Below, piece after piece: positions 26,905-40,140 of a DNA stretch of 64,000 nt; positions within the stretch are counted from its first letter, which is position 1; each line of letters starts with the position of its first letter. The notes beneath the pieces are model-generated. The model saw only the letters and a list, made by a program, of their open reading frames with translations. It searched no databases and was not told where the DNA came from. The DNA is from Deltaproteobacteria bacterium. GTDB taxonomy: Bacteria; Desulfobacterota; BSN033; UBA1163. Location of the stretch: positions 1 to 64,000 of the forward strand of contig VGRY01000008.1 of NCBI GenBank assembly GCA_016875195.1, read 5' to 3'. Made by a program: the position numbers and the translations under genes.

Positions 26905-27065
26905 CAGGCCCAATAGACCAATAATCAAATTTCAATAACCAAATAAATTCCAATAACCAAACAGCAAAATGACCAAACAGGAATAGGTTTGGTAAATTGA
27001 GTATTGGTTATTATTTGGTGTTTGCCTGCCTGCCGGTAGGCAGGGAATTTGGTGTTTGGTTATTC
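26905..27065. repeat. Intergenic hairpin word-repeat block with a GCCTGCCGGTAGGC palindrome
   Basis: CAATAACCAAATAAATTCC words on the left and TTGGTTATTATTTGGTGTTT on the right. A 17-bp palindrome-like segment (CCTGCCTGCCGGTAGGCAGG, about 27025-27044) interrupts the right half; a related CCTGCCTACCAGTAGGCAGG occurs near 55557. Confidence 0.65.
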
Positions 27066-27090
27066 ATCTTTTTTTGAGGGAGGAAGAAAG

Positions 27091-27489
27091 ATGGCACAAA
27101 AAGAAGAAAGACCCCCTGTGAAAGAATTTTTAGATATGCTGGCGGATATATTGGCCGAAAAATATTTTGAACGCGTGGATGACCGGATCAAGAAAATCCC
27201 GGAACTCAGGAGATTGATTACCGCCAAAGAAGCGGGCCAGTACCTGAGCCTTTCCACGGATACGATCTATCGAATGGCTTCCATGAAAAAACTTCCCTAC
27301 CTCAAGATCGGAGACCGGGTCCTCTTCGATATCAAGACCCTCGACCACTGGATTGAAAGGCACCTGATTAAAGAGAAAGAGTGGAAGAGGGAAGAGCTGA
27401 AGGCTGAGTTCGAATCAGAGAAGCCAAATGCCAAAACCCCAAAAGATTCGGATCTCCTAACCCTCCTCAAGAAAAAAAGCAAAGATTAG
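27091..27489 (+). CDS. Small helix-turn-helix (excisionase/MerR-type) DNA-binding protein
   Basis: 132 residues from ATG 27091, which has GAGGGAGGAAG just upstream; the longer frame to 27049 reads through repeat and is rejected. The central segment LITAKEAGQYLSLSTDTIYRM to RVLFDIKTLDHWIE is the classic HTH_17/excisionase winged helix. The flanks are charged, with a Lys-rich end. Such proteins are transcription factors or recombination directionality factors. No integrase is nearby, so a regulator of the adjacent REC-LpxC gene or of itself is as likely. Confidence 0.75.
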   Translation: MAQKEERPPVKEFLDMLADILAEKYFERVDDRIKKIPELRRLITAKEAGQYLSLSTDTIYRMASMKKLPYLKIGDRVLFDIKTLDHWIERHLIKEKEWKREELKAEFESEKPNAKTPKDSDLLTLLKKKSKD

Positions 27490-28088
27490 GATTCTCTTGA
27501 TCGCTGTTCTCGCAATCGAATATCACTGCCTGTTGCTGCATAAAGACTCCCACTTCGATCTGATCGCACGACACTCTTCATTGAAGTGCTATACCTAACC
27601 TTCCCTTTTGCTGGACAGTTGATAGTATTAGTCAGTTCAAGTTGACTTAAAACCCCCAACTCCATTTTAAGACAACATTGCTTGACTTACAGAGGGGATT
27701 ATAAATTGAGTTCTTCCGGCTTTCGTATCGGTGCTTTCCCCCCCTCTTAAGTTTAAGAGGGGGGGGAGGGGGAGTTATAAGGGGAAGTTACCTACTTAAT
27801 TCCCGAATGAACCATAAGGAATATATCGAGATCATAGCAAGGGGGCTAATGAACGAATCATAAATTCTTTGATTTGGGTAAGGAAGAGACTTCCATTAAA
27901 AAAAGATAGAATATGTTACGTATAGCACAAGGCCGCAAAATAATCTAACATTTAACTTTGATGATTACGGGGGGAAAGGAAGTATAACACCATGCGTAAT
28001 CGACGGGAATTAAGCGCAATTGTAATTCCCATCCCTTTAACGCAAATGTTTGCCTACAGGGTCAACGATTCAGTGCAAGAGCCTCTCT
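27490..28088. other. Non-coding region between the HTH and M23 genes
   Basis: About 600 bp with no convincing gene on either strand. It contains one MITE-like copy (27709-27812). The small frame at 27992-28210 on + is antisense to the M23 gene and has no features of a protein. The remainder shows no tRNA, promoter pair or palindrome that I can support. Confidence 0.5.
27709..27812 (+). mobile_element. MITE-like element, copy A (degenerate)
   Basis: The ends are GTTCTTCCGGC and TTCCCGAATGAAC, imperfect versions of the terminal inverted repeat GTTCATCCGG seen intact at 60157 and near 35549. The inside reads GGCTTTCGTATCGGTGCTTT, a CCCCCTCTTAAGTTTAAGAG palindrome, then GAGGGGGAGTTATAAGGGGA. The order matches copies at 35420 and (inverted) 60157. 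No coding capacity. Confidence 0.7.
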
Positions 28089-28826
28089 CTATTGTTTTCT
28101 TTTGCTTTCCTCAATTAACGCCTTTCCATAATCCCCACAGGCAATTGGAATGGTTAGAAACGGCGGTAACGATTTTCTCAAACCAGCGTGTGCAAGAATC
28201 TTTTTCATAATATCGGCCCTTTCTGGGCTACCTCTTGGATATTTATCCATTTCAGCCCAAAGAGCACCATCTTCTTGCTGCCATTTATCTCTTTCCTCTT
28301 TATTCATTCCTGTGGGGTCTTCGACTGAATAGTTCATCTTCGGATCAAAACATTGTGGCTGTCCACCTAACCAGACCTTTTTGGGGTCAATTGTATTAAC
28401 CATTCTCCTGCAATCAGGAGTACCAAATTTGCAGACTCCAAAATGTAGATGCTGATGGTCTTTACGGTTATAATTGTTAGAGGCCCCAGAGAGACCGATT
28501 AACTGCCCCCTATTCAGCAATTGTCCATTCTTAACAGCCACCTTACTAAGATGAGCATAAATTGTGTAAAAATGGGTTTCGTGTGTGACTACCACTTGCA
28601 TACCATTTTCAATTCCATCGTCAGCGACTGCAATATGAACAACTCTTCCATCGGCGGCAGCGATGATGGGTGTACCTGTATTTATATCGTAATCAATTCC
28701 AGGATGGATACCGTCACCGTAGGGAGCAGGACCGCCATATGGTTTACCTACCGTAAAAGGACCGTGCTTTACACATGAGGATGCCAAAAAAACTGTGAGA
28801 ATCAGGCAAAAGAATAGTTTTTTCAT
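28089..28826 (-). CDS. M23 (LytM-type) metallopeptidase lipoprotein
   Basis: 245 residues from ATG 28826, chosen for the perfect AAGGAGGAGAAA site and the signal it gives; the frame is open a further 109 codons but that stretch overlaps another gene-like frame. Lipoprotein signal MKKLFFCLILTVFLASSC. The M23 fold has zinc ligands in GIHPGIDYD and HLHFG, with IAAADGRVVHIA, as in peptidoglycan endopeptidases. Both the first (HxxxD) and last (HxH) ligand motifs are intact. The C-terminal 80 residues are a charged, helical extension of unknown role. It lies downstream of the Cys-rich mini-gene and hicBA on the same strand. Confidence 0.87.
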   Translation of the reverse strand: MKKLFFCLILTVFLASSCVKHGPFTVGKPYGGPAPYGDGIHPGIDYDINTGTPIIAAADGRVVHIAVADDGIENGMQVVVTHETHFYTIYAHLSKVAVKNGQLLNRGQLIGLSGASNNYNRKDHQHLHFGVCKFGTPDCRRMVNTIDPKKVWLGGQPQCFDPKMNYSVEDPTGMNKEERDKWQQEDGALWAEMDKYPRGSPERADIMKKILAHAGLRKSLPPFLTIPIACGDYGKALIEESKRKQ

Positions 28827-28872
28827 TTTCTCCTCCTTTTCTTCATTTTTTATTTTGTTGAACGTTATGGTA

Positions 28873-29178
28873 TTAATTGCACCTGAAATATGTGTTGCAA
28901 TTAGCCCCAGCATCATAGCTATTTTTGTAACATCGACATGTGCAAATATTGGAGTAAAAATACCCCCAGGGACAGCAGAAGGCTTGACCACATCTATAGT
29001 GCTCGCAATAAACACCACCAGGGCATGGATTATTCTGTGTGACAAGTACTGGGCTGACCGCATTGGCATCGTTACAATCAACCGGTAGTGCGAAATCTGG
29101 CTCTTGTCTTGTTTCCGTAGAAAACGATAAAAGCCGGCAGGAGGGTCAGGCAACGGTAATTCGGTATTTATTGACCAT
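28873..29178 (-). pseudogene. Cys-rich small secreted-type protein, interrupted frame
   Basis: On the minus strand a frame from ATG 29178 reads MVNKYRITVA, hits TGA at 29148-29146, then stays open to TAA at 28873. The open part contains 11 cysteines in its last 62 residues (for example CPGGVYCEHYRCGQAFCCPW and CTCRCY). One frame over, the DNA just after the TGA encodes a hydrophobic run (CLTLLPAFIVFY) like a signal-peptide core. A one-base change before and another after that run would give a single secreted Cys-rich protein. This is either a decaying gene or a sequence error. The Cys spacing is reminiscent of granulin/EGF-like modules, but I cannot assign a family. It ends 46 bp upstream of the M23 lipoprotein start. 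Confidence 0.55.
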
Positions 29179-29233
29179 CAGTGAAAGTATAAAACAGTAG
29201 TCAAGAGAGGAACTCTTAATCAAGGGTAGGGAA

Positions 29234-29467
29234 TTACAGTAATTTCTTTAATTCCTCAATCGAGATGTCCACATCTCTCAGAATCTTTCTTAAGAGACCC
29301 TTACTAATATCTTTTCCCTTATGAACGGGGATCGTTGTAATTCTTCCATCCAAATGTTTGTAACGAAAATGGCTGCCCTTTGACTTTCTTGTGCAGGAAA
29401 AACCAAGTTTCTCTAAGGCCCGTATTAATTCCAGAGCCTTCAGTACCGGTAGTTTGGTATCATTCAT
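29234..29467 (-). CDS. hicA: HicA family mRNA-interferase toxin
   Basis: 77 residues, the normal HicA size. It has the dsRBD-like HicA/YcfA pattern: ALELIRALEKLGFSCTRKSKGSHFRY, with the catalytic His in GSHF, then TTIPVHKGKDISKGLLRKIL. HicA cleaves mRNA until bound by HicB. The start overlaps the hicB stop by 4 nt, and antitoxin-first order (hicB then hicA) is one of the two known arrangements. Confidence 0.93.
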   Translation of the reverse strand: MNDTKLPVLKALELIRALEKLGFSCTRKSKGSHFRYKHLDGRITTIPVHKGKDISKGLLRKILRDVDISIEELKKLL

Positions 29468-29697
29468 AGAGTCACTTCAACCCATTTCATCCCTATCACT
29501 TCAGGATGTTTAAGGTCAACTTTCTTCTTTTCCTCCCTCAGTTCTTCCAGACACATTTGAATGACATCCTTGATATTTCTCATCGCCTCTTCATAGGTAT
29601 CGCCCTGTGTATAACACCCTTCTAATGCTGGGCAATTTGCAATAAAGGCTCCATCTTCGTCCTGTTCAATAACCACTTGTAGAAGATATTTCTTCAT
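29464..29697 (-). CDS. hicB: HicB family antitoxin
   Basis: 77 residues. The HicB partial RNase-H fold is seen: LLQVVIEQDEDGAFIANCPALEGCYTQGDTYEEAMRNIKDVI. No C-terminal DNA-binding domain is present, since the protein stops just after the fold; autoregulation would then need another route. AGAGGTCCGAAAT precedes the ATG. It begins 32 bp after the 3' CCA of tRNA-Leu on the same strand with no promoter that I can see between, so the tRNA and toxin-antitoxin pair may share a transcript. Confidence 0.92.
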   Translation of the reverse strand: MKKYLLQVVIEQDEDGAFIANCPALEGCYTQGDTYEEAMRNIKDVIQMCLEELREEKKKVDLKHPEVIGMKWVEVTL

Positions 29698-29729
29698 ATT
29701 TCGGACCTCTTTATGAATTAATAAAAAAT

Positions 29730-29818
29730 TGGTGCCGGAGGTCGGAATCGAACCGACACGGGGTTTGAGCCCCGCGGGATTTTGAGTCCCGTGCGTCTAC
29801 CAGTTTCACCACTCCGGC
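29730..29818 (-). tRNA. tRNA-Leu (anticodon CAA)
   Basis: On the minus strand: acceptor GCCGGAG pairs with CTCCGGC and is followed by encoded ACCA. The D-arm is GTGAAACTGGTAGAC. The anticodon arm is CGGGA-CTCAAAA-TCCCG, with CAA at positions 34-36. A long variable arm (GGGGCTC/ACCCC) is typical of class II leucine tRNA. The T-arm is GTCGG-TTCGATT-CCGAC. It decodes UUG. Confidence 0.96.
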
Positions 29819-29827
29819 ACAGACATC

Positions 29828-29856
29828 AATATAAAAAAATTTACCTTTGGTGTCAA
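29828..29856 (-). promoter_or_regulatory. Sigma-70 promoter of tRNA-Leu
   Basis: On the minus strand TTGACA (29856-29851) and TATATT (29833-29828) are separated by exactly 17 bp, ending about 10 bp before the tRNA 5' end. This is a near-consensus housekeeping promoter and the best one in the window. Confidence 0.85.
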
Positions 29857-29984
29857 ATAAAATGGAGAGTTTTTCTGACATCATTATTATATTCCTACCC
29901 TGAAGTACTTCCAATTCACTACTACATACACCTCGATCCTCAAGACTTGAGGAACTTCCGTAAACGGGATTAGGTAAAACTAAT

Positions 29985-30156
29985 GGGTGTCTCTAAAATG
30001 TCATTCCAGTCCCGATCTTCATCGGGAGAATCCAGTCCCGCTTTTGACGGGACGAAATAACTCGGTTTCGAGTCGCAACGACTGGACTCCCACCGGAGTT
30101 TATCCCGTTCTTGATACGTGGCGGAAGTGACGAATTCGGAATTTTTAGAGGTTCCC
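29985..30156 (+). mobile_element. MITE-like element with GGGAACCTCTAAAAATTC ends, copy 1
   Basis: The left end is GGGTGTCTCTAAAATGTCATTC and the right end GAATTTTTAGAGGTTCCC, an imperfect terminal inverted repeat. Internal segments GTCCCGATCTTCATCGGGAG and CTCGGTTTCGAGTCGCAACG occur in the copy at 40597-40736, in inverted order. No coding capacity. Confidence 0.75.
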
Positions 30157-30452
30157 TAAATAATTTGATTCATAATAACGATGCCGAAGCCAGGTAGTTT
30201 ATTTTTTTTACAGCTGGCAAGCCGGAAGTGTTGAAAATTTTAATAGTCTGGTGTTTATTTATTAAACAATAAAAAATGTAAATTATTTAAGCGGTTAAGA
30301 GAAAATAGAAAAACTGCCGTAGAATTATTCAACATATCCCCACTAACCCCCCGTGTAGAGAAACTTTATATTTCAATTTTTTAAACCATCGAACAAATTG
30401 TAATCATTATATATTAATTGAAAAAATAATATTTTTGTGAAAACGTTAAACT

Positions 30453-30469
30453 TTGGCCCGTTTCTTGGA
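30453..30469 (+). promoter_or_regulatory. Sigma-54 (-24/-12) promoter of the GcvH-like/HybA/NrfD operon
   Basis: TTGGCCCGTTTCTTGGA matches the RpoN consensus TTGGCACG-N4-TTGCA, with the GG and GG(C) elements exactly 12 bp apart. It sits 47 bp before the first gene of the operon that ends with a sigma-54 activator gene. The upstream 200 bp are very AT-rich, as expected for activator and bending sites, though no clear activator dyad was found. Confidence 0.75.
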
Positions 30470-30515
30470 ATAGTGAGGACGAGATCAAAAAAGAAAAAGA
30501 AAGGGGGAATTGAGT

Positions 30516-31286
30516 ATGGTACTTATCCTGGTTTTTCTAACATTCGTTTTCGCGATCGTAGCAGGAAGCTTCGTACGCCGCTGGGTTGAGAAAAGAGAAC
30601 TTTCAGTGGCCGAGATGGAGCGGTCGAATTTTTTAGCCAGGTTATCTGAGGATGCCAGGGCAAAGGTAGTGACTCCCATTCGCTGGGTGGAGAGAGGGGA
30701 GATGGCGCTTTCTCCGGTGGGCGCAGTCCCTGGAAGTCCACTCCAGTTTCCAAAAGATGTCTATTATCACAAAGGACATGCTTGGGCAAAGATTGAAGGA
30801 GATCAAAGGATAAAGTCTGTGATGGTGGGTCTTGATGATTTCACCCAGGAGGTCATGGGAGATATTGAGGCCATCGAGGTGCCACCCATTGGTATGGAAC
30901 TGAAACAAGGGGAGGTCGGCTGGAAAGTCCGTCATGGTAAACGGAAATTGAGCCAGATCGTTCCATTGGGTGGAACGGTTGTGGACTTAAATGAGAAGCT
31001 CCTTAAAGATCCGTCTCTGGCGAACCGCTCTCCTTATGATCAAGGATGGATTCTAAAGATTAAACCAAACAATCTCGGCGGGGAAATGCCCGCATTGATG
31101 GACTCTTTCCAGTTTCGAGTGGCCTTCGATCAAGTCAAGGCCAAACTGAGATCCGCGATCAGTCATCAAACGCTCGGAATGGTCTATGGCGATGGGGAAG
31201 AAGTGGTCCGCGGAATCGCTGACAAATTAGATGAGAAGTTGTGGAGGATATTGGTTAGCCAATTATTCCATTCTACTCCAAATTGA
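30516..31286 (+). CDS. Membrane-anchored GcvH-fold (lipoyl-carrier-like) protein 1
   Basis: 256 residues from ATG 30516, with AAGGGGG 8 nt upstream. An N-terminal membrane helix (VLILVFLTFVFAIVAGSFV) is followed by a linker, then a glycine-cleavage H-protein-like domain (about 70-190): YYHKGHAWAKIEGDQRIKSVMVGLDDFTQEVMGDI, then PLGGTVVDLNEKLLKDPSLANRSPYDQGWILKI. GcvH carries lipoate on a Lys eight residues before the conserved Pro; here that position is Lys142 (HGKRKL). It could be lipoylated, but the surrounding acidic residues are missing. No other glycine-cleavage gene is present, and the operon context points to electron transfer. The lipoyl role is an inference. Confidence 0.8.
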   Translation: MVLILVFLTFVFAIVAGSFVRRWVEKRELSVAEMERSNFLARLSEDARAKVVTPIRWVERGEMALSPVGAVPGSPLQFPKDVYYHKGHAWAKIEGDQRIKSVMVGLDDFTQEVMGDIEAIEVPPIGMELKQGEVGWKVRHGKRKLSQIVPLGGTVVDLNEKLLKDPSLANRSPYDQGWILKIKPNNLGGEMPALMDSFQFRVAFDQVKAKLRSAISHQTLGMVYGDGEEVVRGIADKLDEKLWRILVSQLFHSTPN

Positions 31287-31314
31287 CGACAAAAACATGA
31301 AAGGAGGGGATCTT

Positions 31315-31401
31315 ATGGTAACCACCTTAGCTCTGATGACATTGATCACCTGCTTGGTAATCAGCACCCTTATCAAACAAAGCAAACGCATTGCCCACTG
31401 A
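31315..31401 (+). CDS. 28-residue single-span membrane peptide
   Basis: ATG at 31315 follows a perfect AAAGGAGGGGATCTT. The peptide begins MVTTLALMTLITCLVISTLI, one membrane helix, and ends in a basic tail (KQSKRIAH) before TGA at 31399. It lies alone in the gap between the GcvH-like and HybA-like genes, with its own ribosome-binding site. Small subunits like this are common in membrane redox complexes. I do not recognise the family. Confidence 0.7.
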   Translation: MVTTLALMTLITCLVISTLIKQSKRIAH

Positions 31402-31422
31402 AAAAAAATGAGGAGGAGCCCC

Positions 31423-32322
31423 ATGGGAATTAACAGGAGAAAATTTCTTAAAGTACTTGGTGGAGGGATTGTGGGCGGGGGAATCGCAGGCGCTGCAATG
31501 GGAAATATTGTTGCCCCCAAAAAGTTTAAAGCAGACGCGTCTGTTCCCCCCAAAGAATTTGTCGGGATACTGGTTGATACAACCCGATGTGTCGGCTGCC
31601 GTGCTTGCGAAGAAGCATGTGCGCAAGCCAATCACATGCCTGTCCCGGATATCGGCGACAGCTCGGTATTTGAGAAGAAGCGCAATACAAGCGTCACCCA
31701 ATTGACGGTGGTCAGCCGCTATCAAACAGAAAAAGGGGAGGTCTTCGTCAAGCAGCAGTGCATGCACTGCAATCAGCCTGGATGTGTGGCGGCCTGCCTG
31801 GTGAAGGCGATGGAAAAGAGAAAGGAAGGGCCTGTCACCTGGGAGAGAAATTGCATGGGTTGCCGATACTGCATGCCCTCCTGCCCATTTGAAATGCCAA
31901 AGTTTGAATATGAAAGTTCTAACCCCAGAATTCAGAAGTGCAGCCTGTGCTGGGATCGACTGGAGAAGGGAGAGATTCCGGCCTGCGTCGAAGCCTGCCC
32001 GGAAGAGGCGCTCAGCTTTGGCCCAAGGAGAAAGATGATCGAGGAAGCCAATAGTCGGATTTACAAAAACCCCGGAGAGTATCTCACCCACATCTATGGA
32101 GAGCATGAAGTGGGGGGAACGGGGTATCTTTATATTTCGAAGGTTCCTTTCGAACAGCTTGGTTTCAGAACAGACCTGGGGAACATCGCCTATCCTGAGT
32201 ACAGCAAAGGTTTTCTCTACTCCGTGCCCATTGTTCTTCTGCTCTGGCCTGCTTTCTTAATCGGATTGAACGCGCTCACCAAAAGAGAAGAGGAGAAGAA
32301 GAGGAAAGGAGGAGAAAGATGA
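31423..32322 (+). CDS. Tat-exported HybA-like 4Fe-4S electron-transfer subunit
   Basis: 299 residues from ATG 31423, with GAGGAGGAGCCCC just upstream. Twin-arginine signal INRRKFLKVLGGG. Four Cys groups follow the HybA/DmsB/DsrO pattern: CVGCRACEEAC, CMHCNQPGCVAAC, CMGCRYCMPSCPF and CSLCWDRL with CVEACP, enough for four 4Fe-4S clusters. A C-terminal membrane helix (LYSVPIVLLLWPAFLIGL) anchors it, as in HybA. It should sit on the periplasmic face and pass electrons to or from the NrfD-type subunit encoded next, with which it overlaps (ATGA). No catalytic molybdopterin or hydrogenase subunit is nearby. Confidence 0.93.
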   Translation: MGINRRKFLKVLGGGIVGGGIAGAAMGNIVAPKKFKADASVPPKEFVGILVDTTRCVGCRACEEACAQANHMPVPDIGDSSVFEKKRNTSVTQLTVVSRYQTEKGEVFVKQQCMHCNQPGCVAACLVKAMEKRKEGPVTWERNCMGCRYCMPSCPFEMPKFEYESSNPRIQKCSLCWDRLEKGEIPACVEACPEEALSFGPRRKMIEEANSRIYKNPGEYLTHIYGEHEVGGTGYLYISKVPFEQLGFRTDLGNIAYPEYSKGFLYSVPIVLLLWPAFLIGLNALTKREEEKKRKGGER

Positions 32323-33614
32323 TGAATGAGACAGCCACAGCAGGAGAAATAAAGAGCGTTAAAGATTTTGTGGGTTTTATCCGCAAAGAGCTGAAGCCGA
32401 AGGGGAAGCTCTTGACCCCTTTTAATGTTATCACTCTTCCCATCATCCTTCTCGGTGGTGTGCTCATTGTCTATCGTTTAGTTAAAGGGCTGGGCGCCGT
32501 GACCAACTTATCCCAGGAGTTTCCCTGGGGGATATGGATCGGGTTTGACGTGATGGTAGGAGTCGCCTTTGCCGGCGGCGCCTACATCCTTACCTTTGTC
32601 GTCTATATCCTTCGCACGGAAAAGTATCATCCGGTGGTCCGGGCAACGGTCCTCAACGGGTTCCTTGCCTATGTCTTTTATGCCGGCGCCATTTTGCTGG
32701 ACCTCGGCCGGTGGTGGAACATCGTCAACCCCATCCTTGGAAATAAGTTCGGAGTCAATTCAGTGCTCTTCCTTGTTTCCTGGCACTTTCTGCTCTATAT
32801 GATTTCCCTGTTTATTGAATTCTCCCCGGCTATCGCTGAATGGCTGGGATTCAAGAGAGTCAGGAAGATCCTTGGGTCATTGACCGTCGGTGCGGTCATC
32901 TTCGGCATCGCCCTTTCCACCCTTCATCAATCGGGTCTGGGGGCGCTCTTTTTGATGGCCAAGGATAAGATCCATCCCCTGTGGTACACCGAGTTTATCC
33001 CGGTACTCTTCTTCACATCGAGTATCTTCGCGGGATTGTCCATGGTTATTTTTGAAGGGACCATCAGCCACAAGGTCTTCAGTCATCAGATCGATGAGAA
33101 ACATCACCAATCTTTTAATGAGATCGTCCTTGGTCTGGGCAAGGCCTGCGCAGGAGCCCTGTTTGTCTATTTCTTCATGAAGGTCCTGATCCTCATCCAT
33201 GGGAAACAATGGGGGCTTCTGGCTTCTCCCATGGGATATTGGTACTTGGTCGAAATTTTTGGCCTGGTCCTACTCCCATGTTACATGTTCTTAAGGGGAG
33301 TCCGGTACAAGAATTTTACAGTCATCCGGGTAGCGGCGATCCTGTCGGTGCTTGGAATTATCATCAACCGGCTCAATATCTCTGTCATCGCCTATAAATG
33401 GTACGTGCCATGGAGCCAGAGATACTTTCCTTCCTGGATGGAAATTGTGATCACCATGGCCATCATCCTGACCGAAGTGTGGGTGTTCAGGTGGATCGTG
33501 AACCGGATGCCGGTGATCCAAGAGTCACCAGAATGGGCAAGAGAAGGACATCATCGTGAAGAGAGTTTAACCCTCAGAAAGGAGGTTCCACAATGGAAGG
33601 CTTCAGCTATGTAG
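32319..33614 (+). CDS. NrfD/HybB-type membrane quinone-interacting subunit
   Basis: 431 residues, about ten membrane helices. HybB-like features: the N-terminal LLTPFNVITLPIILLGGVLIVYRL, FPWGIWIGFDVMVGVAFAGG, and conserved YVFYAGAILLDLGRWWNI. NrfD/HybB proteins hold no cofactor but bind menaquinone and couple to the ferredoxin subunit. The ATG overlaps the preceding stop, and the 3' end overlaps the next GcvH-like gene by 22 nt, so the three are translationally coupled. The direction (quinol oxidation or quinone reduction) cannot be told. Confidence 0.93.
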   Translation: MMNETATAGEIKSVKDFVGFIRKELKPKGKLLTPFNVITLPIILLGGVLIVYRLVKGLGAVTNLSQEFPWGIWIGFDVMVGVAFAGGAYILTFVVYILRTEKYHPVVRATVLNGFLAYVFYAGAILLDLGRWWNIVNPILGNKFGVNSVLFLVSWHFLLYMISLFIEFSPAIAEWLGFKRVRKILGSLTVGAVIFGIALSTLHQSGLGALFLMAKDKIHPLWYTEFIPVLFFTSSIFAGLSMVIFEGTISHKVFSHQIDEKHHQSFNEIVLGLGKACAGALFVYFFMKVLILIHGKQWGLLASPMGYWYLVEIFGLVLLPCYMFLRGVRYKNFTVIRVAAILSVLGIIINRLNISVIAYKWYVPWSQRYFPSWMEIVITMAIILTEVWVFRWIVNRMPVIQESPEWAREGHHREESLTLRKEVPQWKASAM

Positions 33615-34291
33615 ACATTTTTGCTACCAAACACATCGAGTATCTGCTGGTCATCGGGTTTCTGCTGCTCTTCATCCCCTTCTGGAGATTATTGAACAGG
33701 CCTGCCAAAGCCATCTTTGAGGTGGCCGAGCGGATTGTTCCCACCCTCAGCGAATGGTTTCGGCTCCCGGAGGGACGGTATTATCATCTGGGGCACAGTT
33801 GGGCCACCCCCGAAGCGAATCAACAAACGGTGAAGATTGGCATTGACGATTTTGCCCAAAAGCTCGTGGGAGGCATTAACGGGATTCAGGTCCCTGCGGT
33901 TGGTTCGACCCTCCGTCAGGGTGATCGGGGATGGACCTTAAAGGTCGATTCGAAGACAATCGATATGCTTTCCCCGGTCGGTGGAAGAGTGGTCGCGATC
34001 AATGAAAAGGTGATCCAGTCCCCGGGTGCGATTAATAAGGACCCCTACAACAACTGGTTGATGGAAGTGGAGGCGCCCAAGTTTTCCGTGGATAAAAGAC
34101 AGTTACTTTCAGGAGGCGTGGCCAAGAAATGGATGGAAGAGGTGCGAGAGAGCCTCTTGTCCAGGATGAATTACAATCTGGGCTTGGTGTATCAAGACGG
34201 CGGTTTGCTCGTCGACGGTATGGCCAGAAGCCTCGATCGAGAAAAATGGGATGAAATTGCGAAAGACTATTTTCTGATCACCGAAGGTTGA
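33593..34291 (+). CDS. Membrane-anchored GcvH-fold protein 2
   Basis: 232 residues. One N-terminal membrane helix (IEYLLVIGFLLLFIPFWRLL), then an H-protein-like domain: YYHLGHSWATPEANQQTVKIGIDDFAQKLVGGI and SPVGGRVVAINEKVIQSP. Its best lipoyl-lysine candidate (DSKTIDMLSP) is seven rather than eight residues before the Pro, so lipoylation is doubtful. It resembles protein 1 in layout and sits on the other side of the HybA/NrfD pair, with the start inside nrfD and AAAGGAGG upstream. Probably a structural or carrier subunit of the same complex. Confidence 0.78.
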   Translation: MEGFSYVDIFATKHIEYLLVIGFLLLFIPFWRLLNRPAKAIFEVAERIVPTLSEWFRLPEGRYYHLGHSWATPEANQQTVKIGIDDFAQKLVGGINGIQVPAVGSTLRQGDRGWTLKVDSKTIDMLSPVGGRVVAINEKVIQSPGAINKDPYNNWLMEVEAPKFSVDKRQLLSGGVAKKWMEEVRESLLSRMNYNLGLVYQDGGLLVDGMARSLDREKWDEIAKDYFLITEG

Positions 34292-34415
34292 AAACAGGAG
34301 GAAGGGCCGAGAAGGGTTTTAACGGTTGTCTTCCAGAGAAGAAAGAGCATGAGGTTTTGATGTGAGGCGTTGTTGAGATAGGATCATCACCAAGATGTGT
34401 TGAGAGGGTAAGAAA

Positions 34416-35288
34416 ATGGACGGGAAAATAGACAACTCTCCGAAGAAAGATGGATACCCACTCATCCCTGATCAATCGATCAAATGTGTCTGGATGACCG
34501 CCGGCCTCATCTCTTATAAACTCTGTAAATATGATTTGCAGTGCGAGAAGTGTCCTCTGGATTGGGAACTGCGAAATCTCTCCTCGGCTCCCTCCTTTGA
34601 TTCGACCGCCCCTCCGGAGATAAAACATCTGAAAACCGGAGAAAAACTCACGCCCCCTCCACCGGAAAGGGATGCTGAAGAGGAGGAGGGGGCAAGGGAG
34701 GACCTCCGCCGCTTAAAGATTAAAGAAGATTTGTTTTACCATTACAGACATACATGGATCAAAGTGGAAAAGGGTGATGAGGTCCGGATTGGCATTGATC
34801 GTTTCCTGGGGGGACTCATCGGAAAAGCGACGGCCGTCATTCTCCCTCTTTCGGGAGGGCGGAGCAACCAGGGAGAAAGCCTCTGTTCCATCATCCAGGA
34901 GGAGGGCATGCTGCATATTGTTTCCCCCATCAGCGGATTGATTCTGTCGGTCAACCAGAGATTGAAAGATCGACCCTCATTGCTCAACCGGGATTCCGAG
35001 GGAGATGGGTTTTTGATGACCCTGACCCCTAAACATCTTCAACGAGACCAACAGAATTTCTTCTCTGGAGAGGGGGCACTTTCGTGGTGCCGGAAAGAAT
35101 GGGAACGCTTTAAAACGGAGGTCATTTCTGAACTGCCAATCAGGCAGAAATGGCTTGGCATGACCATGCAGGATGGGGAGGTTACCCTCAGAGACATAAA
35201 ACAACTCATTGGCCCACAACGATATATCCGGTTGGTGAATAACTTTCTGCGAAGAGGAGAGAAGTTCTCTCCTGACACAAAGGCATAG
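34416..35288 (+). CDS. Soluble GcvH-fold protein 3 with an N-terminal four-Cys motif
   Basis: 290 residues, no membrane helix. The N-terminal 50 residues hold C24-x12-C37-x5-C43-x2-C46 in KCVWMTAGLISYKLC and QCEKCPLD, a motif I associate with short Cys-rich domains on some deltaproteobacterial signalling and H-protein-like proteins. A Glu-rich linker follows, then the H-protein-like domain (FYHYRHTWIKVEKGDEVRIGIDRFLGGLIG). The lipoyl position is Glu (IQEEGMLHIVSPISG), so it cannot be lipoylated. It is 124 bp after protein 2 and in the same orientation, upstream of the kinase. A redox or metal sensing role is possible but unproven. Confidence 0.72.
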   Translation: MDGKIDNSPKKDGYPLIPDQSIKCVWMTAGLISYKLCKYDLQCEKCPLDWELRNLSSAPSFDSTAPPEIKHLKTGEKLTPPPPERDAEEEEGAREDLRRLKIKEDLFYHYRHTWIKVEKGDEVRIGIDRFLGGLIGKATAVILPLSGGRSNQGESLCSIIQEEGMLHIVSPISGLILSVNQRLKDRPSLLNRDSEGDGFLMTLTPKHLQRDQQNFFSGEGALSWCRKEWERFKTEVISELPIRQKWLGMTMQDGEVTLRDIKQLIGPQRYIRLVNNFLRRGEKFSPDTKA

Positions 35289-35605
35289 AGGTTATTTTCA
35301 CCCCATCCCCAATCCGGGAAGTCACACGTTTAACCGGTCTTCACTTCCCCCTCCTTCATGATCCTCCATTTCAATTTTTACGTTGATGCTGATTAAAGAT
35401 TATGGTAAAAGAGAACAAGATTCATCCGGCTTTCGTATGGGTGCTTCCCACCCCCTACGTTTAAGTCCCGATGAAGATCGGGACTCGAAACCAAGAGGGG
35501 ATGAGGGGGAGTTATAAGGGGAGGTTACCCGCTCAATTCCCGGATGAACCGAAAACAGAATGATTTATTGATCCAAGGGATACAATTTCATTTCAGGGCA
35601 AGGAA
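35289..35605. other. Gap between GcvH-like 3 and the histidine kinase
   Basis: 317 bp with no gene. Nearly half is the MITE-like copy at 35420-35549. No -24/-12 or -35/-10 pair stands out, and the kinase could be expressed from readthrough. Confidence 0.5.
35420..35549 (+). mobile_element. MITE-like element, copy B, with a nested hairpin
   Basis: Ends ATTCATCCGGC and CCGGATGAAC form the terminal inverted repeat. The inside matches copy A (CTTTCGTATGGGTGCTTCCC ... GAGGGGGAGTTATAAGGGGA, GGTTACCCGCTCAATTCCCG). The central palindrome is interrupted by GTCCCGATGAAGATCGGGAC, a hairpin found also in the 29985 and 40597 elements, suggesting one repeat inserted in another. Confidence 0.75.
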
Positions 35606-37291
35606 ATGGCAGCAGTGCAAGACTGGGTAAAAAGGCTATTCTTTAAAAAAATTCTGCTGGTGATGGCGGGGCTGAGCTTCAGGAGCTTGAGCTTTAAGCT
35701 CTACTTTCTGCTGGCCATTCTGCTCATCATCTCCTTTGCAGGCATCATGTATTTTAATATCACCTCCTACATTACCCATATTAATGAAAGCGTCATGCAC
35801 AGCGCGATTCAGGCCAGCGACCTGATCAAAGGCTCTGCCCGATACAGCATGTTGAAGAACGATAGGGAACATCTTCAGAATATCATGTCCACTATTGCCA
35901 AGGAAGAGGGTGTGGAGGGAGTTCGAATTTATAATAAGCCGGGGCAAATTTCATTTTCGGACAACTTAACCGAAGTTGGCACCACGGTGGACATCGATGC
36001 AGAACAATGTTCGGTCTGTCATAAGAATGTTCCTCCCCTGGAACATCTGACCACCCAGAATCGAATCCGAATTTTTACCTCTCCCCAAGGACATCGGGTG
36101 CTGGGTCTCATTAATCCGATTGCGAATGAACCTGAATGTTTCAACGCTCCCTGTCATGGCCATTCTCCCAAAGATAAACTTCTCGGGCTGTTGGATGTGA
36201 AGCTATCGTTAAAGGCTGTGGATGAAGAGACTCAGAGGACCAAGGAGCAGATGATTCTCTATTCAAGCATCATGATTGTGATCACCGCCTTGTTATTCGG
36301 GGGCTTCATTATCAAGCTGATTCATACCCCCGTCCGAAAGCTGACCAAAGGAACCAGGGAAGTGGCCAACTTGAACCTGGACTATTCCATCGATTTTAGG
36401 TCGAATGATGAGATGGGAGAATTGGCTCGATCGTTTAACCAGATGACCAGACAACTGAAGGCGGCCAATGAGGCCAACCAGGAATGGTCCGCCATCCTGG
36501 AAAGAAAGGTCCAGGAGAAAAGCGAAGAGCTGAAGAAGGCTCAAGCCCATCTCATCCTGGTGGAAAAGATCGCCTCCCTTGGCAAGCTTTCTGCGATCGT
36601 CGCTCATGAGATCAACAACCCCTTATCAGGAATCCTCACTTATGCGAGCCTCTGTTTGAAGATCATCCAGAACCCCTCCTCTTTTTCTTCGGGAGACTCT
36701 GTCAAATATCTGACCGTGATCAAGGATGAAGCCAAACGGTGCGGCGAAATCGTCAAGAACCTGCTGGTGTTTGCCAAAAAGGATTTTGGCAAATGGACGG
36801 AAGAGAGGCTCCATCATATTATTAATAATAGCATCCGGTTGGTTAAACATAATATGGATCTAAAGGAGGTGTCGCTGGCTCTGGATTTGGCCGAAGGAGA
36901 TGATCTCCTCTTTTGTGACTCCAGCGGCATTCAGCAAATCTTCGTTGCTTTGTTTATCAATGCCATCGAAGCGATGTCCAAGGGGGGGAAATTAACGCTC
37001 AAGACGAGATTTTTAGAGAAACGGCACATCCAAATCGTCATTTCAGATACGGGCTTTGGAATCCCCGAGGAGATCCTGCCCAAGATTTTTGAACCCTTCT
37101 TCACGACCAAAGAATCCACTGGATTAGGGTTGGCGGTCGTCTACAGAATTATTCAGCAACATGAGGGTAAAATCGAAGTGAATTCCAAACCGAATGAGGG
37201 AACAACCTTTACCATTTACTTGCCCAGGGAGCCTTATAAAGTTCAGGAGAGATTGGACAACCATTCGAACAACCTTGGGTCCCAGAGTTGA
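35606..37291 (+). CDS. Membrane sensor histidine kinase with periplasmic c-haem motifs
   Basis: 561 residues. A membrane helix (about 31-51), periplasmic sensor domain (about 52-215), second helix (about 217-237), HAMP (THKxPVRKL-type LIHTPVRKLTKGTREVANLNLD), coiled coil, then HisKA with H-box IVAHEINNPLSGI and HATPase_c (SDTGFGIPEEILPKIFEPFF, TGLGLAVV). The sensor contains CSVCH (Cys135, Cys138, His139), a CXXCH haem c site, and CFNAPCH (Cys178, Cys183, His184), a CX4CH variant. Both are on the side where cytochrome c maturation occurs, so it probably senses redox state or a small ligand. It is followed by its cognate sigma-54 regulator. Confidence 0.92.
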   Translation: MAAVQDWVKRLFFKKILLVMAGLSFRSLSFKLYFLLAILLIISFAGIMYFNITSYITHINESVMHSAIQASDLIKGSARYSMLKNDREHLQNIMSTIAKEEGVEGVRIYNKPGQISFSDNLTEVGTTVDIDAEQCSVCHKNVPPLEHLTTQNRIRIFTSPQGHRVLGLINPIANEPECFNAPCHGHSPKDKLLGLLDVKLSLKAVDEETQRTKEQMILYSSIMIVITALLFGGFIIKLIHTPVRKLTKGTREVANLNLDYSIDFRSNDEMGELARSFNQMTRQLKAANEANQEWSAILERKVQEKSEELKKAQAHLILVEKIASLGKLSAIVAHEINNPLSGILTYASLCLKIIQNPSSFSSGDSVKYLTVIKDEAKRCGEIVKNLLVFAKKDFGKWTEERLHHIINNSIRLVKHNMDLKEVSLALDLAEGDDLLFCDSSGIQQIFVALFINAIEAMSKGGKLTLKTRFLEKRHIQIVISDTGFGIPEEILPKIFEPFFTTKESTGLGLAVVYRIIQQHEGKIEVNSKPNEGTTFTIYLPREPYKVQERLDNHSNNLGSQS

Positions 37292-37302
37292 GGAGGGGGG
37301 AG

Positions 37303-38649
37303 ATGGATCAACAGAGATTCAGCATTTTAATCGTCGATGACGAGTTTTCAGTGAGGGATTCCTTATATAACTGGTTTAAAGTTGAGGGATATCGGGTCGA
37401 TACTGCAGAAAATGCCTCGGAGGCTTTGAGAAAACTGCAGGAAGGCCCCTGGGACATCGCCTTGCTTGATATTAAGATGCCCGGCATGGACGGAATCGAG
37501 CTTCAGAAACACATTAAGAGGATCGATAAGACGATCGTCGTGATCATCATTACCGCCTACGCTACTGTGGATACAGCCGTGGAGGCGATGAAGGACGGAG
37601 CTTTCGATTATATCTCCAAGCCCATCGATCCGGACAAACTATCGGTTTTAATCCGCAATGCGATCAACCACCGGAGGCTGGTGGCTGAAAATATCCAGCT
37701 GAAGCAGAAGGTGGAGGAGCTATCCCTGCAGGATGAAATTATTGGGGCAAGCCCACAGATTAAAAAGATACTGGAGATGATCGAAGTGGTTTCCCAGACC
37801 GATGCAACGGTCCTGATCCGTGGAGAAAGCGGAACCGGGAAAGAGCTGGTTGCCCAGGCCATCCACGGAAAGAGCAACCGGAGATATTTCCCGATTATTT
37901 CGATCAACTGCGGATCCCTGGCCGAGGGCCTTCTCGAGAGTGAACTCTTTGGCCATGAGAAGGGCGCATTTACCGGAGCCCAGTACAAAAGAAAAGGGAA
38001 GCTGGAGATGGCCAATGGGGGCACCATCTTTTTTGACGAAATTGGAAATATCTCGCCAAAAATGCAGATGGATCTCCTTCGTGTCCTTGAAACCAAACAG
38101 TTCACTCCCCTGGGAAGCAATAAAGTCATCAACGTGGATTTCCGGGTTATTACCGCAACGAATACCGACCTTGAAAAAGAGGTGGCGGAGAAGAATTTTC
38201 GAGAGGATTTCTATTACCGTCTCAATGTCTTTTCCATTCACATTCCACCTCTTCGAGAAAGAACCGAGGACATTCCCCTCCTCGCCCAGTATTTTCTCGA
38301 GAAATATGCCAAATCGATGAATAAAAAAGTGACGGAGATCTCTCCGGAAGGGATGAAGATATTGACTCAGTATGACTGGCCGGGCAATATTCGCGAGCTG
38401 AGAAATACCATCGAGAGAGCCCTCGTGGTGGTGGGAAAGAAAAATAGGATTGAACCGGAGGATTTAAACCTGCATTCCCCTGCCAAACAAAATTTAACGA
38501 ACGCAGAGAGCCTGGAGGATTTAGAGAAAGTTCATATCCAGCGAGTCTTAGAGAAAACCAGTGGAAACATTTCGAAGTCTGCGGAGATACTCAAGATTGA
38601 CAGGGTTACCCTTTACAACAAGATCAAAAAATATAATTTACCCCGTTAG
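37303..38649 (+). CDS. Sigma-54-dependent response regulator (NtrC family)
   Basis: 448 residues from ATG 37303, with GAGGAGGGGGGAG upstream. Receiver domain with ILIVDDEF, phospho-acceptor Asp in ALLDIKMPGMDG and KPIDPDK. AAA+ domain with Walker A GESGTGKE, the sigma-54 contact loop GAFTGA, Walker B GTIFFDEIG and an R-finger region. A Fis-type HTH closes the protein (SKSAEILKIDRVTLYNKIKKY). It should be phosphorylated by the preceding kinase and activate RpoN promoters such as the one at 30453. The start lies just past the kinase stop. Confidence 0.95.
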   Translation: MDQQRFSILIVDDEFSVRDSLYNWFKVEGYRVDTAENASEALRKLQEGPWDIALLDIKMPGMDGIELQKHIKRIDKTIVVIIITAYATVDTAVEAMKDGAFDYISKPIDPDKLSVLIRNAINHRRLVAENIQLKQKVEELSLQDEIIGASPQIKKILEMIEVVSQTDATVLIRGESGTGKELVAQAIHGKSNRRYFPIISINCGSLAEGLLESELFGHEKGAFTGAQYKRKGKLEMANGGTIFFDEIGNISPKMQMDLLRVLETKQFTPLGSNKVINVDFRVITATNTDLEKEVAEKNFREDFYYRLNVFSIHIPPLRERTEDIPLLAQYFLEKYAKSMNKKVTEISPEGMKILTQYDWPGNIRELRNTIERALVVVGKKNRIEPEDLNLHSPAKQNLTNAESLEDLEKVHIQRVLEKTSGNISKSAEILKIDRVTLYNKIKKYNLPR

Positions 38650-38760
38650 AAAATTTTACTGTGTGCTCCATGTGAAGCTAAAGTTCCATCGGGAGGTGAG
38701 ACGTCCTGTTGTGGAGGAGCAGAATTTCTAACGGGGTGAACAGAGGTCGTCCGTCCATCC

Positions 38761-39309
38761 ATGTCCTATATTGACATCGTCCCCATTGGCAAGATCGAGG
38801 AAGCGTACCTTTCCTCCCTCAAGCAAAACCTTTATCAGACGTTCAAAGTCCAGACCCGGGTTCGAAAGCACCCCGTTGATTTTTCTACGGTCTATGATTC
38901 TGTTCGAAACCAGTACAACTCCAGCGGTTTTCTGGTCCAGTTGATCCATGATCTTCCATCCGAAACAATGAAAGTCCTGGGGGTGACCGAGATGGACCTG
39001 TTCATCCCCATCTTCACCTTTCTGTTTGGTGAAGCCCAGCTGAATGGACCCGGGGCGATCGTCTCTGCCCATCGCCTTCATAATCCATTTTACGGCATTC
39101 CTGAGAATAGATCCCTGTTTGAAAATCGTCTCCTGAAAGAGAGCATCCATGAATTAGGTCACACCTTTGGTCTCATTCACTGTTTCAATTTAAGATGTGT
39201 GATGAATACTTCCACCTACGTCGAAGAGATTGACCAGAAATCTGCCAATTTCTGCAAGGCCTGCGAACAGGAAATCCTTCGTTGGCGAAATGAACATCTC
39301 GTAGATTGA
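38761..39309 (+). CDS. amzA: Archaemetzincin family zinc metallopeptidase
   Basis: 182 residues, the normal size. The extended zinc motif is HELGHTFGLIHC (His130, His134, His140), followed by Cys and Met-turn (LRCVMNTS) and a CX2C pair (FCKAC) for the second, structural zinc. This matches HExxHxxGxxHCx4CxM-x17-CxxC, the archaemetzincin signature. Archaemetzincins are found in archaea, some bacteria and animals; their bacterial substrate is unknown. It lies 111 bp after the sigma-54 regulator, in the same orientation. No signal peptide. Confidence 0.93.
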   Translation: MSYIDIVPIGKIEEAYLSSLKQNLYQTFKVQTRVRKHPVDFSTVYDSVRNQYNSSGFLVQLIHDLPSETMKVLGVTEMDLFIPIFTFLFGEAQLNGPGAIVSAHRLHNPFYGIPENRSLFENRLLKESIHELGHTFGLIHCFNLRCVMNTSTYVEEIDQKSANFCKACEQEILRWRNEHLVD

Positions 39310-39390
39310 AGCAGTCAAATTCCCTAAGTGAAAGATGTTCTTACCTGATCCTCTTGCAACTTTTAGGATAAAGCATTAGACTGGTTCTAT

Positions 39391-40140
39391 ATGAAGACGA
39401 GGAGATTTTTCAACCCCGTTTTTCTCTTCTTTTTTGTCATTCTTCTCTTTCCCCAAATCTGTTTTGCCTTGACAGATGAAGAAATCCAAAAATTTCAGTC
39501 TCCCCTGAAGGATCGAACCGTAGGGGAGAGGATTGTGTTCTGGGCGGAGAAATTTATTGGAACGCCGTACGATCAAGATCCCATGGGTGAATATGTCACA
39601 AAGGCAGCGATCGTGGCAGATGAGAGAATGGATTGCATGTATCTCACTTTCCGGGTAGTAGAGCTTGCCCTGAGCCGCAACCCTGAAGAAGCGATTCAGG
39701 TTGCCCTTGAGAGACGATTTCATTCAAAAGGGCTTCTGAAGGACGGGAAGGTCCTCAATTATGAGAACCGATTTGAATACGGGGAGGATATGGTTACAAG
39801 CGGAAAGTGGGGAAGGGAGATCACCTCACAGGTTGGAAAGACAAAACGCATCAAGGGTTCGAGGGGCAAACCCTTCGTGGATATTCTTCCTTCTAATCAA
39901 ATCCGTAACAGAATAGAGAGAGTGAAGAACGGGGATATCCTCTTCTTCATAAAGGAGATTGAAAAAAGGAAGCTGGGTGAGATCGTTGGACATATTGGGA
40001 TTATCAAAATTGAGCAAGAAGCCTATCTCATCCATGCCAGCGGAACAAAAGAGAAAGGCGGAGAGGTGAAGAAGGTTCCGTTAAAAGAGTATCTTTTAAA
40101 GATGCCGTTTGTCGGCATCATGATTACAAGGTTCGATTGA
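39391..40140 (+). CDS. Secreted DUF1460/NlpC-P60-like cysteine hydrolase
   Basis: 249 residues. The Sec signal MKTRRFFNPVFLFFFVILL ends near CFA-LTDEE. The mature part has WAEKFIGTPYDQDPMGEY, a catalytic Cys in MDCMYLTFRVVELAL (equivalent to the FDCVTF region of DUF1460/NlpC-P60-like enzymes) and His in GEIVGHIGII. DUF1460 proteins characterised elsewhere are cell-wall amidases or endopeptidases, so it probably trims peptidoglycan. The fold is recognised by pattern only. Confidence 0.7.
   Translation: MKTRRFFNPVFLFFFVILLFPQICFALTDEEIQKFQSPLKDRTVGERIVFWAEKFIGTPYDQDPMGEYVTKAAIVADERMDCMYLTFRVVELALSRNPEEAIQVALERRFHSKGLLKDGKVLNYENRFEYGEDMVTSGKWGREITSQVGKTKRIKGSRGKPFVDILPSNQIRNRIERVKNGDILFFIKEIEKRKLGEIVGHIGIIKIEQEAYLIHASGTKEKGGEVKKVPLKEYLLKMPFVGIMITRFD

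Follow-up and report, generated by a model that had tools for sequence, protein, structure and literature searches.

A conserved gene module joining GcvH-like proteins and an Fe-S/NrfD redox unit with a haem-type sensor kinase, a sigma-54 regulator and an archaemetzincin

The first 64,000 nucleotides of contig VGRY01000008.1 from a Deltaproteobacteria bacterium (assembly GCA_016875195.1), hereafter the window, carry a unit in which proteins resembling the glycine cleavage protein GcvH surround a quinone-linked redox pair and are followed by a two-component system and an archaemetzincin. The source genome is a 4.08-Mb draft, 87% complete and with 5% contamination. The full unit spans 30229-39309, which is larger than the run at 30453-38649 that was described in an earlier note on this DNA, and all its genes lie on the forward strand. 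H1 (30510-31286, likely ATG at 30516; PF01597, 2.8e-22) encodes a GcvH-like protein with one N-terminal membrane helix. It is followed by a gene with a ribosome-binding site for a 28-residue, single-helix membrane peptide (31315-31401), by a Tat (twin-arginine translocation) exported iron-sulphur (Fe-S) protein of the HmcB/HybA kind (31408-32322, likely ATG at 31423), and by an HmcC/HybB-like membrane subunit of the NrfD type with the quinone site (32319-33614; PF03916, 4.7e-10). Four 4Fe-4S cysteine sets can be read from the sequence of the Fe-S protein, and Pfam 4Fe-4S domains are present. Then come H2 (33593-34291; PF01597, 3.3e-19), again GcvH-like with one N-terminal membrane helix, and H3 (34416-35288; PF01597, 3.8e-15), which is soluble and has an N-terminal four-cysteine (Cys4) motif, C-x12-C-x5-C-x2-C. 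The unit closes with a sensor histidine kinase that has periplasmic CxxCH and CxxxxCH haem-c motifs and HAMP, HisKA and HATPase domains (35606-37291), an NtrC-type response regulator (37288-38649, likely ATG at 37303; PF00158 at 3.5e-69, PF00072 and PF02954), and an archaemetzincin of peptidase family M54 (38761-39309; PF07998).

Just before H1 lies a -24/-12 promoter-like site for sigma-54, TGGCCCGTTTCTTGGA (30454-30469, forward strand), which scores 12.2 bits and ranks fourth among the 127,970 positions of both strands, and upstream of it are three palindromic, operator-like sites, TGTTGAAAATTTTAATA (30229-30245), TGTTTATTTATTAAACA (30252-30268) and CGTAGAATTATTCAACA (30318-30334). The earlier note had placed the same genes in one direction here, which the Pfam matches bear out (three GCV_H, NrfD, kinase and NtrC-type regulator), and hydropathy agrees with its division of the GcvH-like proteins into two that are membrane-anchored, by the N-terminal helix of H1 and H2, and one, H3, that has no such helix. 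It overlooked the peptide gene between the H1 and Fe-S genes, the archaemetzincin gene directly 3' of the regulator gene, and the three palindromes. The only structured RNA found at 27000-40000 is a tRNA gene (29733-29818, reverse strand) upstream of the module.

Searching with H2, we obtained 32 loci that carry relatives of this protein, many of them cut by contig ends; single loci are named below by L numbers. Their titles assign them to Deltaproteobacteria and relatives, Bacteroidetes, Gemmatimonadetes, Krumholzibacteriia, Spirochaetes and Chlorobiota, and the named loci most like the window come from uncultured proteobacteria, Deltaproteobacteria and Syntrophaceae. GcvH-like, Fe-S and NrfD genes stand together in 20 of the 32 loci, from several phyla, so that the association which the earlier note saw in a single genome holds elsewhere, and M54 is present in 21. 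An H gene follows immediately after NrfD in 16 of the 20 loci that hold both Fe-S and NrfD. The whole order H1-FeS-NrfD-H2-H3-kinase-regulator-M54 is shared by L009-L012, which also have counterparts of the small peptide with 28-49 residues. L013 and L014 have FeS-NrfD-H-H convergent with M54-regulator-kinase, and in L028-L030, L033 and L035 a single GcvH-like gene lies beside M54-regulator-kinase with no Fe-S or NrfD gene seen. The gene group is a conserved module that recurs across several phyla.

The three window proteins match the GCV_H family PF01597 with 79, 69 and 56 bits (cut-off 22.2), and solved GcvH proteins match the profile of H3 at 1e-26. This match is what they have in common with GcvH; they differ from it by an extra membrane helix or Cys4 region and by a C-terminal extension, and H1, H2 and H3 miss the equivalog cut-off of TIGR00527 (115.85 bits) with 79.6, 58.3 and 60.3 bits. 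When the lipoyl column is taken from an alignment with a single canonical GcvH, encoded in the same genome, lysine is found at the column in 9 of 143 GcvH-like proteins, within one residue of it in 57, and in an E-x-x-K context in 2. The window H1 has its lysine exactly in this column, where its orthologues differ (E in L012, G in L011), and H2 has one within one residue, so modification of single members is possible. The earlier note had seen carrier or structural parts in these subunits; since neither the lysine nor its acidic context is conserved a carrier role is unlikely, and we dropped a lipoyl carrier as their general function. Among 60 distinct proteins above a hydropathy threshold that lets through an occasional soluble protein (the H3-type protein of L013), the charge pattern puts the GcvH domain on the cytoplasmic side in 50, on the opposite side in 5, and is undecided in 5; the domain of H1 is placed in the cytoplasm. 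The Cys4 motif or a close variant is present in 50 of the 77 soluble proteins, with 27 lacking it, against none of the 66 membrane-anchored ones. C24, C37, C43 and C46 of H3 are invariant in an alignment of 37 sequences, picked largely for the motif, and in a model of H3 the predicted local distance difference test (pLDDT) is mostly above 90 in the GcvH domain and about 60-70 in the Cys region. Some H3-type proteins, those of L033, L035 and L028 among them, carry another Cys4 repeat ahead of the GcvH domain.

The redox core itself is of a known kind, HmcBC/HybAB-like and resembling complexes of Fe-S, NrfD and multihaem proteins. The Hmc complex likewise pairs a Tat Fe-S protein with an NrfD-type subunit, and HmcB and HmcC are the top-scoring curated NCBIfam families. 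The window proteins are however below the equivalog cut-offs (336 of 420 bits for HmcB, NF045715, and 430 of 550 for HmcC, NF045714), and the Hmc parts HmcA and HmcF have no counterpart, as no HmcA-like cytochrome is found in the window and no HmcF-like gene among the open reading frames (ORFs) of the run; GcvH-like proteins, haem kinase, sigma-54 regulator and M54 are there instead. Hydrogenase-2 also has an Fe-S protein with a C-terminal anchor and an NrfD-type partner, HybA and HybB, but the scores of 234 against 263 bits for HybA (PRK10882) and 260 against 450 for HybB are again too low, and no hydrogenase subunits are found among the ORFs of the run. With scores below the cut-offs and the other subunits missing, membership in either Hmc or Hyb was dropped. 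A CxxCH motif occurs in the window only in the kinase and in one radical-SAM ORF, once in each.

Complexes of Fe-S, NrfD and multihaem subunits from Melioribacter and MBNT15 have been proposed to be quinol:acceptor reductases (PMC9386147, citing the work on Melioribacter). They have the same redox core, and the likeness extends to the 13-haem cytochrome found in 13 of the 14 receiver-GcvH loci that are treated below. The section on these complexes names no GcvH-like protein, receiver-GcvH fusion, kinase or M54, whereas the window has no cytochrome, and in the passages concerned NrfD and glycine cleavage occur in unrelated contexts (PMC9386147). Another paper in which both terms turn up is a study of the E. 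coli proteome in piglets. Among open-access papers we found none that joins NrfD with GcvH, with or without a histidine kinase, none that links a response regulator output domain with GcvH, and none in which NrfD and multiheme proteins appear along with a sensor histidine kinase. That two-component systems can control respiration is already known; the joining of these parts looks like a so far undescribed way of regulating it. In the same genome, which has 9 PF03916 matches, another NrfD gene with a much stronger match lies about 31 kb downstream, just outside the window (C8:64901-65851, reverse strand), and contigs C13 and C41 each have two NrfD matches together with paired-CXXCH cytochrome matches. 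These may be clusters like alternative complex III, which could supply the missing electron partner.

The haem-c motifs of the window kinase read CSVCH and CFNAPCH. Both the CxxCH and a second C-x4/5-CH motif are invariant in 25 kinases that had been picked for one CxxCH. The sensor region, modelled with a mean pLDDT of 84, matches PF21563 (Mcp40H-20_sensor) weakly with 17.6 bits, below the cut-off of 27, and over 46 residues its profile aligns with PDB chain 3b42 (E 2.8e-4), which is deposited as a putative methyl-accepting chemotaxis protein and which we take to be a haem-c sensor domain from Geobacter; the window kinase differs from it in its second haem motif and its kinase output. In 48 loci, with each kinase counted once and a regulator required next to it, Fe-S and NrfD genes accompany 18 of 25 haem-type kinases and none of 23 non-haem kinases (Fisher 7e-8, uncorrected for kinship). 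Of the seven haem kinases without the pair, four (L019, L052, L116 and L119) lie in loci truncated close to the kinase gene, and the row for L032 probably took a kinase from outside the module. The association supports the coupling of a redox sensor to a redox unit that had been proposed from the window alone, and L123 and L146 lack both haem kinase and Fe-S/NrfD within a clade that has both. One core of regulator, M54 and H protein thus works with sensors of different kinds, the haem type being employed where the redox unit occurs.

For sigma-54 sites we used a hand-set matrix based on the consensus TGGCAC-N5-TTGCW. The earlier note had called the promoter well spaced. The spacing is right and kept in relatives and the -24 element of the window is good, while the -12 element reads GG against GC in the consensus, as it does in L009, with GA in L010-L012. 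These four loci keep the site as TGGCYCG-N4-TTG, each with a weak -12. With duplicate loci included, sites of at least 12 bits precede 41 of 130 GcvH-like genes against 12 of 728 control ORFs, which were mechanical ORFs of more than 220 residues and not annotated genes; the counts for the other genes are 0/70 for kinases, 0/71 for regulators, 2/127 for M54, 3/40 for Fe-S and 1/40 for NrfD. After deduplication, by which 66 of 76 module loci were kept, only the first gene of each unit was scored at the same threshold, and the site is found at 17 of 37 units headed by a GcvH-like gene (window included), 3 of 13 headed by Fe-S and 0 of 42 headed by a kinase, with 0/9 for M54, 0/3 for the regulator and 0/1 for NrfD.

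Upstreams that had been chosen because they carry sigma-54-like sites hold a TGTT-N9-AACA dyad in 11 of 37 cases against 0.4 expected from 20 mononucleotide shuffles, several of the 37 being close relatives (the window, L009, L011 and L012; L093, L094 and L097). A 17-bp operator matrix, TGTTGAA-N3-TTCAACA, was built from 25 of the 27 TGT-N11-ACA sites lying outside the held-out window and L008-L014, and its outer six bases are fixed because the training sites were selected in that form. With this matrix the three best sites of the whole window are all just upstream of the promoter (18.6 bits at 30252, 17.5 at 30318 and 12.8 at 30229), and the next has 10.5 bits. Of 3000 Markov sequences modelled on the local AT-rich region, one reached the best score and none the third score. 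Control upstreams reach 10 bits in 42 of 721 cases, but these come from the same loci as the module and are not a clean background. The site at 30318 is kept in L009, L011 and L012, and the best operator sites of the relatives also lie upstream of H1, three in L009, four each in L010 and L011, and only two strong ones in L012; a fifth site of L010, with 13.1 bits, is inside the kinase gene. In L013 and L014 clusters of operators are found 0.6-0.9 kb before the Fe-S gene.

The window regulator has a receiver, an AAA+ domain with GAFTGA and a Fis helix-turn-helix, as expected of an NtrC-type protein, and RpoN is encoded in the source genome. The recognition helix [IVL][DNS]R-x-TL[YH]-x-[KM] is found in 58 of 60 related regulators and in none of 6 other NtrC-type proteins of the loci, and 44 of the 60, the window included, have the exact GAFTGA. 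A genome-wide regulon was considered and rejected, as TGTTGAANNNTTCAACA with at most two mismatches occurs at 23 places in the genome against 17 for its reversed control. Only the window has two such matches within 100 bp (the site at 30252 is too divergent to be listed), and the regulator therefore looks local. A conserved target lies beside a conserved regulator that would bind it, and with both the -24/-12 site and the operators conserved before the operon, control by the adjacent regulator is very likely, judged from the sequences. The earlier note had called the module self-regulated. This needs qualifying, since the absence of sigma-54 sites at all 42 kinase-first units indicates that the activated part in general is GcvH-like/Fe-S/NrfD. 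In the window kinase and regulator are co-directional with the other genes, and at 35200-35700, the stretch from H3 to the kinase, no sigma-70 promoter or terminator is found, so that here a common transcript may cover them.

Archaemetzincins are present in 93 of 247 genomes of the phylum, at 119 places. We fetched 80 of these, taking higher scores first and passing over the lowest-scoring ones, those of the window itself and part of its near relatives. At least one module partner is found at 47 of the 80 and none at 33, several of these lone loci being short contigs. A regulator lies within 3 kb in 37 cases, a GcvH-like gene within 6 kb in 40, and Fe-S and NrfD genes in 17. In the M54 tree a single clade with support 0.956 gathers the module-linked proteins along with two that are unlinked, L133 and L136, and the other clade is unlinked save for L127, with regulator and kinase nearby, and L078, with a kinase only. 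The window protein scores 168 bits in NF033823 against a cut-off of 145, carries HExxHxxGxxHC-x4-CxM, matches solved archaemetzincins, and has its zinc site HExxHxxGxxHC intact. The zinc site is found in 66 of 81 M54 proteins and in 38 of the 47 of module loci; those that miss it, other than L138, retain HExxH and HC but not the glycine. Ahead of the last CxxC the window protein has 16 residues in place of the published X17, and exactly 17 is found in none of the 81. Either kind of role for M54 has a precedent: AMZ-tk is an active zinc protease (PMC4681839), and CarG of Myxococcus xanthus, which resembles archaemetzincins but is inactive, forms part of a transcriptional regulator, very little being known of the biological importance of the family (PMC3427221). 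The window M54 also sits with a regulator, but CarG has Gln for the catalytic Glu where the window protein has an intact HExxH (PMC3427221). No title of an open-access archaemetzincin paper that we found concerns this gene context.

In L017, L037 and L039 the GCV_H domain is fused to a receiver domain. In the phylum of L039 (Chlorobiota/Bacteroidetes by titles) such fusions are found in at least 14 of 148 genomes, 12 of them with two matches; this is a lower bound, as 17 candidates were scored per genome. We fetched 14 fusion loci, 13 from these genomes and a second copy from the genome of L017, and in all 14 Fe-S, NrfD and a haem kinase are accompanied by two receiver-GcvH proteins. In 13 of the 14 (the L186-L199 set) the genes run FeS-NrfD-13-haem cytochrome-kinase-short fusion-long fusion, L198 being a variant, and all 14 long fusions carry an N-terminal stretch that is strongly hydrophobic. 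L192 and L199 carry further H or Fe-S/NrfD genes. Sigma-54 control of these operons was rejected, the best score at 16 upstreams being 5.9 bits; operator-like scores reach 12.3 in L199 and 8.5 in L196. No M54 was detected in the 14 loci, so that M54 tracks the sigma-54 regulator and not the GcvH-like protein. A similar pair of sensor and redox unit thus reaches the GcvH-like domain either via a sigma-54 regulator or via a built-in receiver, and these fusions are our main reason for reading the domain as a regulatory output. On this reading a haem-sensing two-component system would act on a quinone redox complex with the GcvH-like domain as its output.

We consider it fairly probable that the module is a haem-sensing two-component system that controls a quinone-linked redox complex and its GcvH-fold regulatory subunits. 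The periplasmic haem-c domain of the kinase would read the redox state of the periplasm, probably as set by the electron flow through Fe-S and NrfD, and the kinase would, to judge from adjacency and domains, phosphorylate the NtrC-type regulator next to it. The regulator would bind the tandem TGTTGAA-N3-TTCAACA sites and activate the -24/-12 promoter ahead of H1, by which H1, the small peptide, Fe-S, NrfD, H2 and H3 would be raised. By homology Fe-S and NrfD would form a quinol/quinone oxidoreductase module that trades electrons with periplasmic haem proteins, and the GcvH-like domains, those of H1 and H2 at the cytoplasmic face and that of the soluble H3, would be interaction or regulatory domains on this complex. 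In the receiver-GcvH fusions of Chlorobiota/Bacteroidetes the same output would be wired directly to the kinase. The archaemetzincin would be part of the transcriptional arm, either resetting the regulator or an H protein by proteolysis or serving as a co-regulator in the manner of CarG. A bolder version, possible but on the doubtful side, is that the GcvH fold without lipoate is a new, phosphorylation-controlled output domain of two-component systems, present as receiver fusions in Chlorobiota/Bacteroidetes and as separate, sigma-54-induced proteins in Desulfobacterota, that binds NrfD-type quinone complexes at their cytoplasmic face and gates electron flow by the redox state of periplasmic haem, with a dedicated archaemetzincin resetting the transcriptional arm by regulated proteolysis.

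Several observations weigh against this interpretation. The -12 element of the window is imperfect, 20 of the 37 units headed by a GcvH-like gene have no site of 12 bits or more, and the exact GAFTGA is missing from 16 of the 60 related regulators. No gene of the window encodes a cytochrome with two or more CxxCH. In a tree of 47 regulators just four changes are seen for haem and three for Fe-S/NrfD, or four if L094 is taken as lacking the latter (L019, L094 and L116 were set as unknown, L119 as present since a cut NrfD is visible, and L032 and L052 were left out), and L117 breaks the association by having a haem kinase without Fe-S/NrfD. An NtrC-type gene adjoins the fusion loci L195 and L039, so that the fusion is not a strict replacement. 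Finally, a lysine stands exactly in the lipoyl column of H1 and within one residue of it in 57 of the 143 proteins, H2 included. One could think that the GcvH-like proteins still bear lipoyl or another prosthetic group on a lysine that has moved, and that they pass electrons or acyl groups between NrfD and some enzyme of the cytosol. The exact lysine of nine proteins, the window H1 among them, would fit, but it is not kept even between the H1 orthologues and its E-x-x-K context is found in just two proteins, which makes the shuttle quite improbable.

The GcvH-like proteins could instead be passive structural or assembly subunits of an Hmc/Hyb-like complex, with the fusions as a side branch and the regulation purely transcriptional. 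The position of the H gene directly after NrfD and the membrane anchors, which suggest membership in a complex, speak for it, but many Desulfobacterota loci (L028-L030, L033, L035 and the 23 non-haem rows) have H with M54-regulator-kinase where no Fe-S/NrfD is seen, so that H does not need the complex, and the fusions place the domain at the output of the kinase; we find this reading rather unlikely. It is a little less likely still that Fe-S, NrfD and the H proteins are themselves the sensor, a non-respiratory meter of the quinone pool that feeds the haem kinase without metabolic flux. The lack of a catalytic subunit or cytochrome in the window and the tie between haem kinase and Fe-S/NrfD are what such a meter would give, whereas the 13-haem cytochrome between NrfD and kinase in 13 of the 14 fusion loci is what a complex with electron flux predicts. 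Every part taken alone comes from a common family, and the neighbourhood might be a chance one of ordinary genes that evolved separately; with the order kept across phyla, the promoter and operators conserved, and the held-out operator matrix contradicting it, we give this hardly any credence.

Elsewhere in the window, at 25591-26904 on the forward strand, a receiver domain is fused to LpxC, the lipid A deacetylase (PF00072, 1.2e-31; PF03331, 2.8e-85), and this fusion may place an early step of lipid A synthesis under phosphorelay control.

The GcvH-like proteins may be named glycine cleavage H by homology alone, which would mislead metabolic reconstructions. The conserved operators and promoter can be tested at once, and comparing sigma-54 control with receiver fusion suggests a direct way to learn how the GcvH-like domain acts on the quinone complex, in lineages among which are syntrophic and metal-reducing bacteria. 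Gene order links one clade of archaemetzincins to a particular regulator and kinase, and if gating and proteolysis work as in the bolder version above, this would give bacterial archaemetzincins a physiological role.

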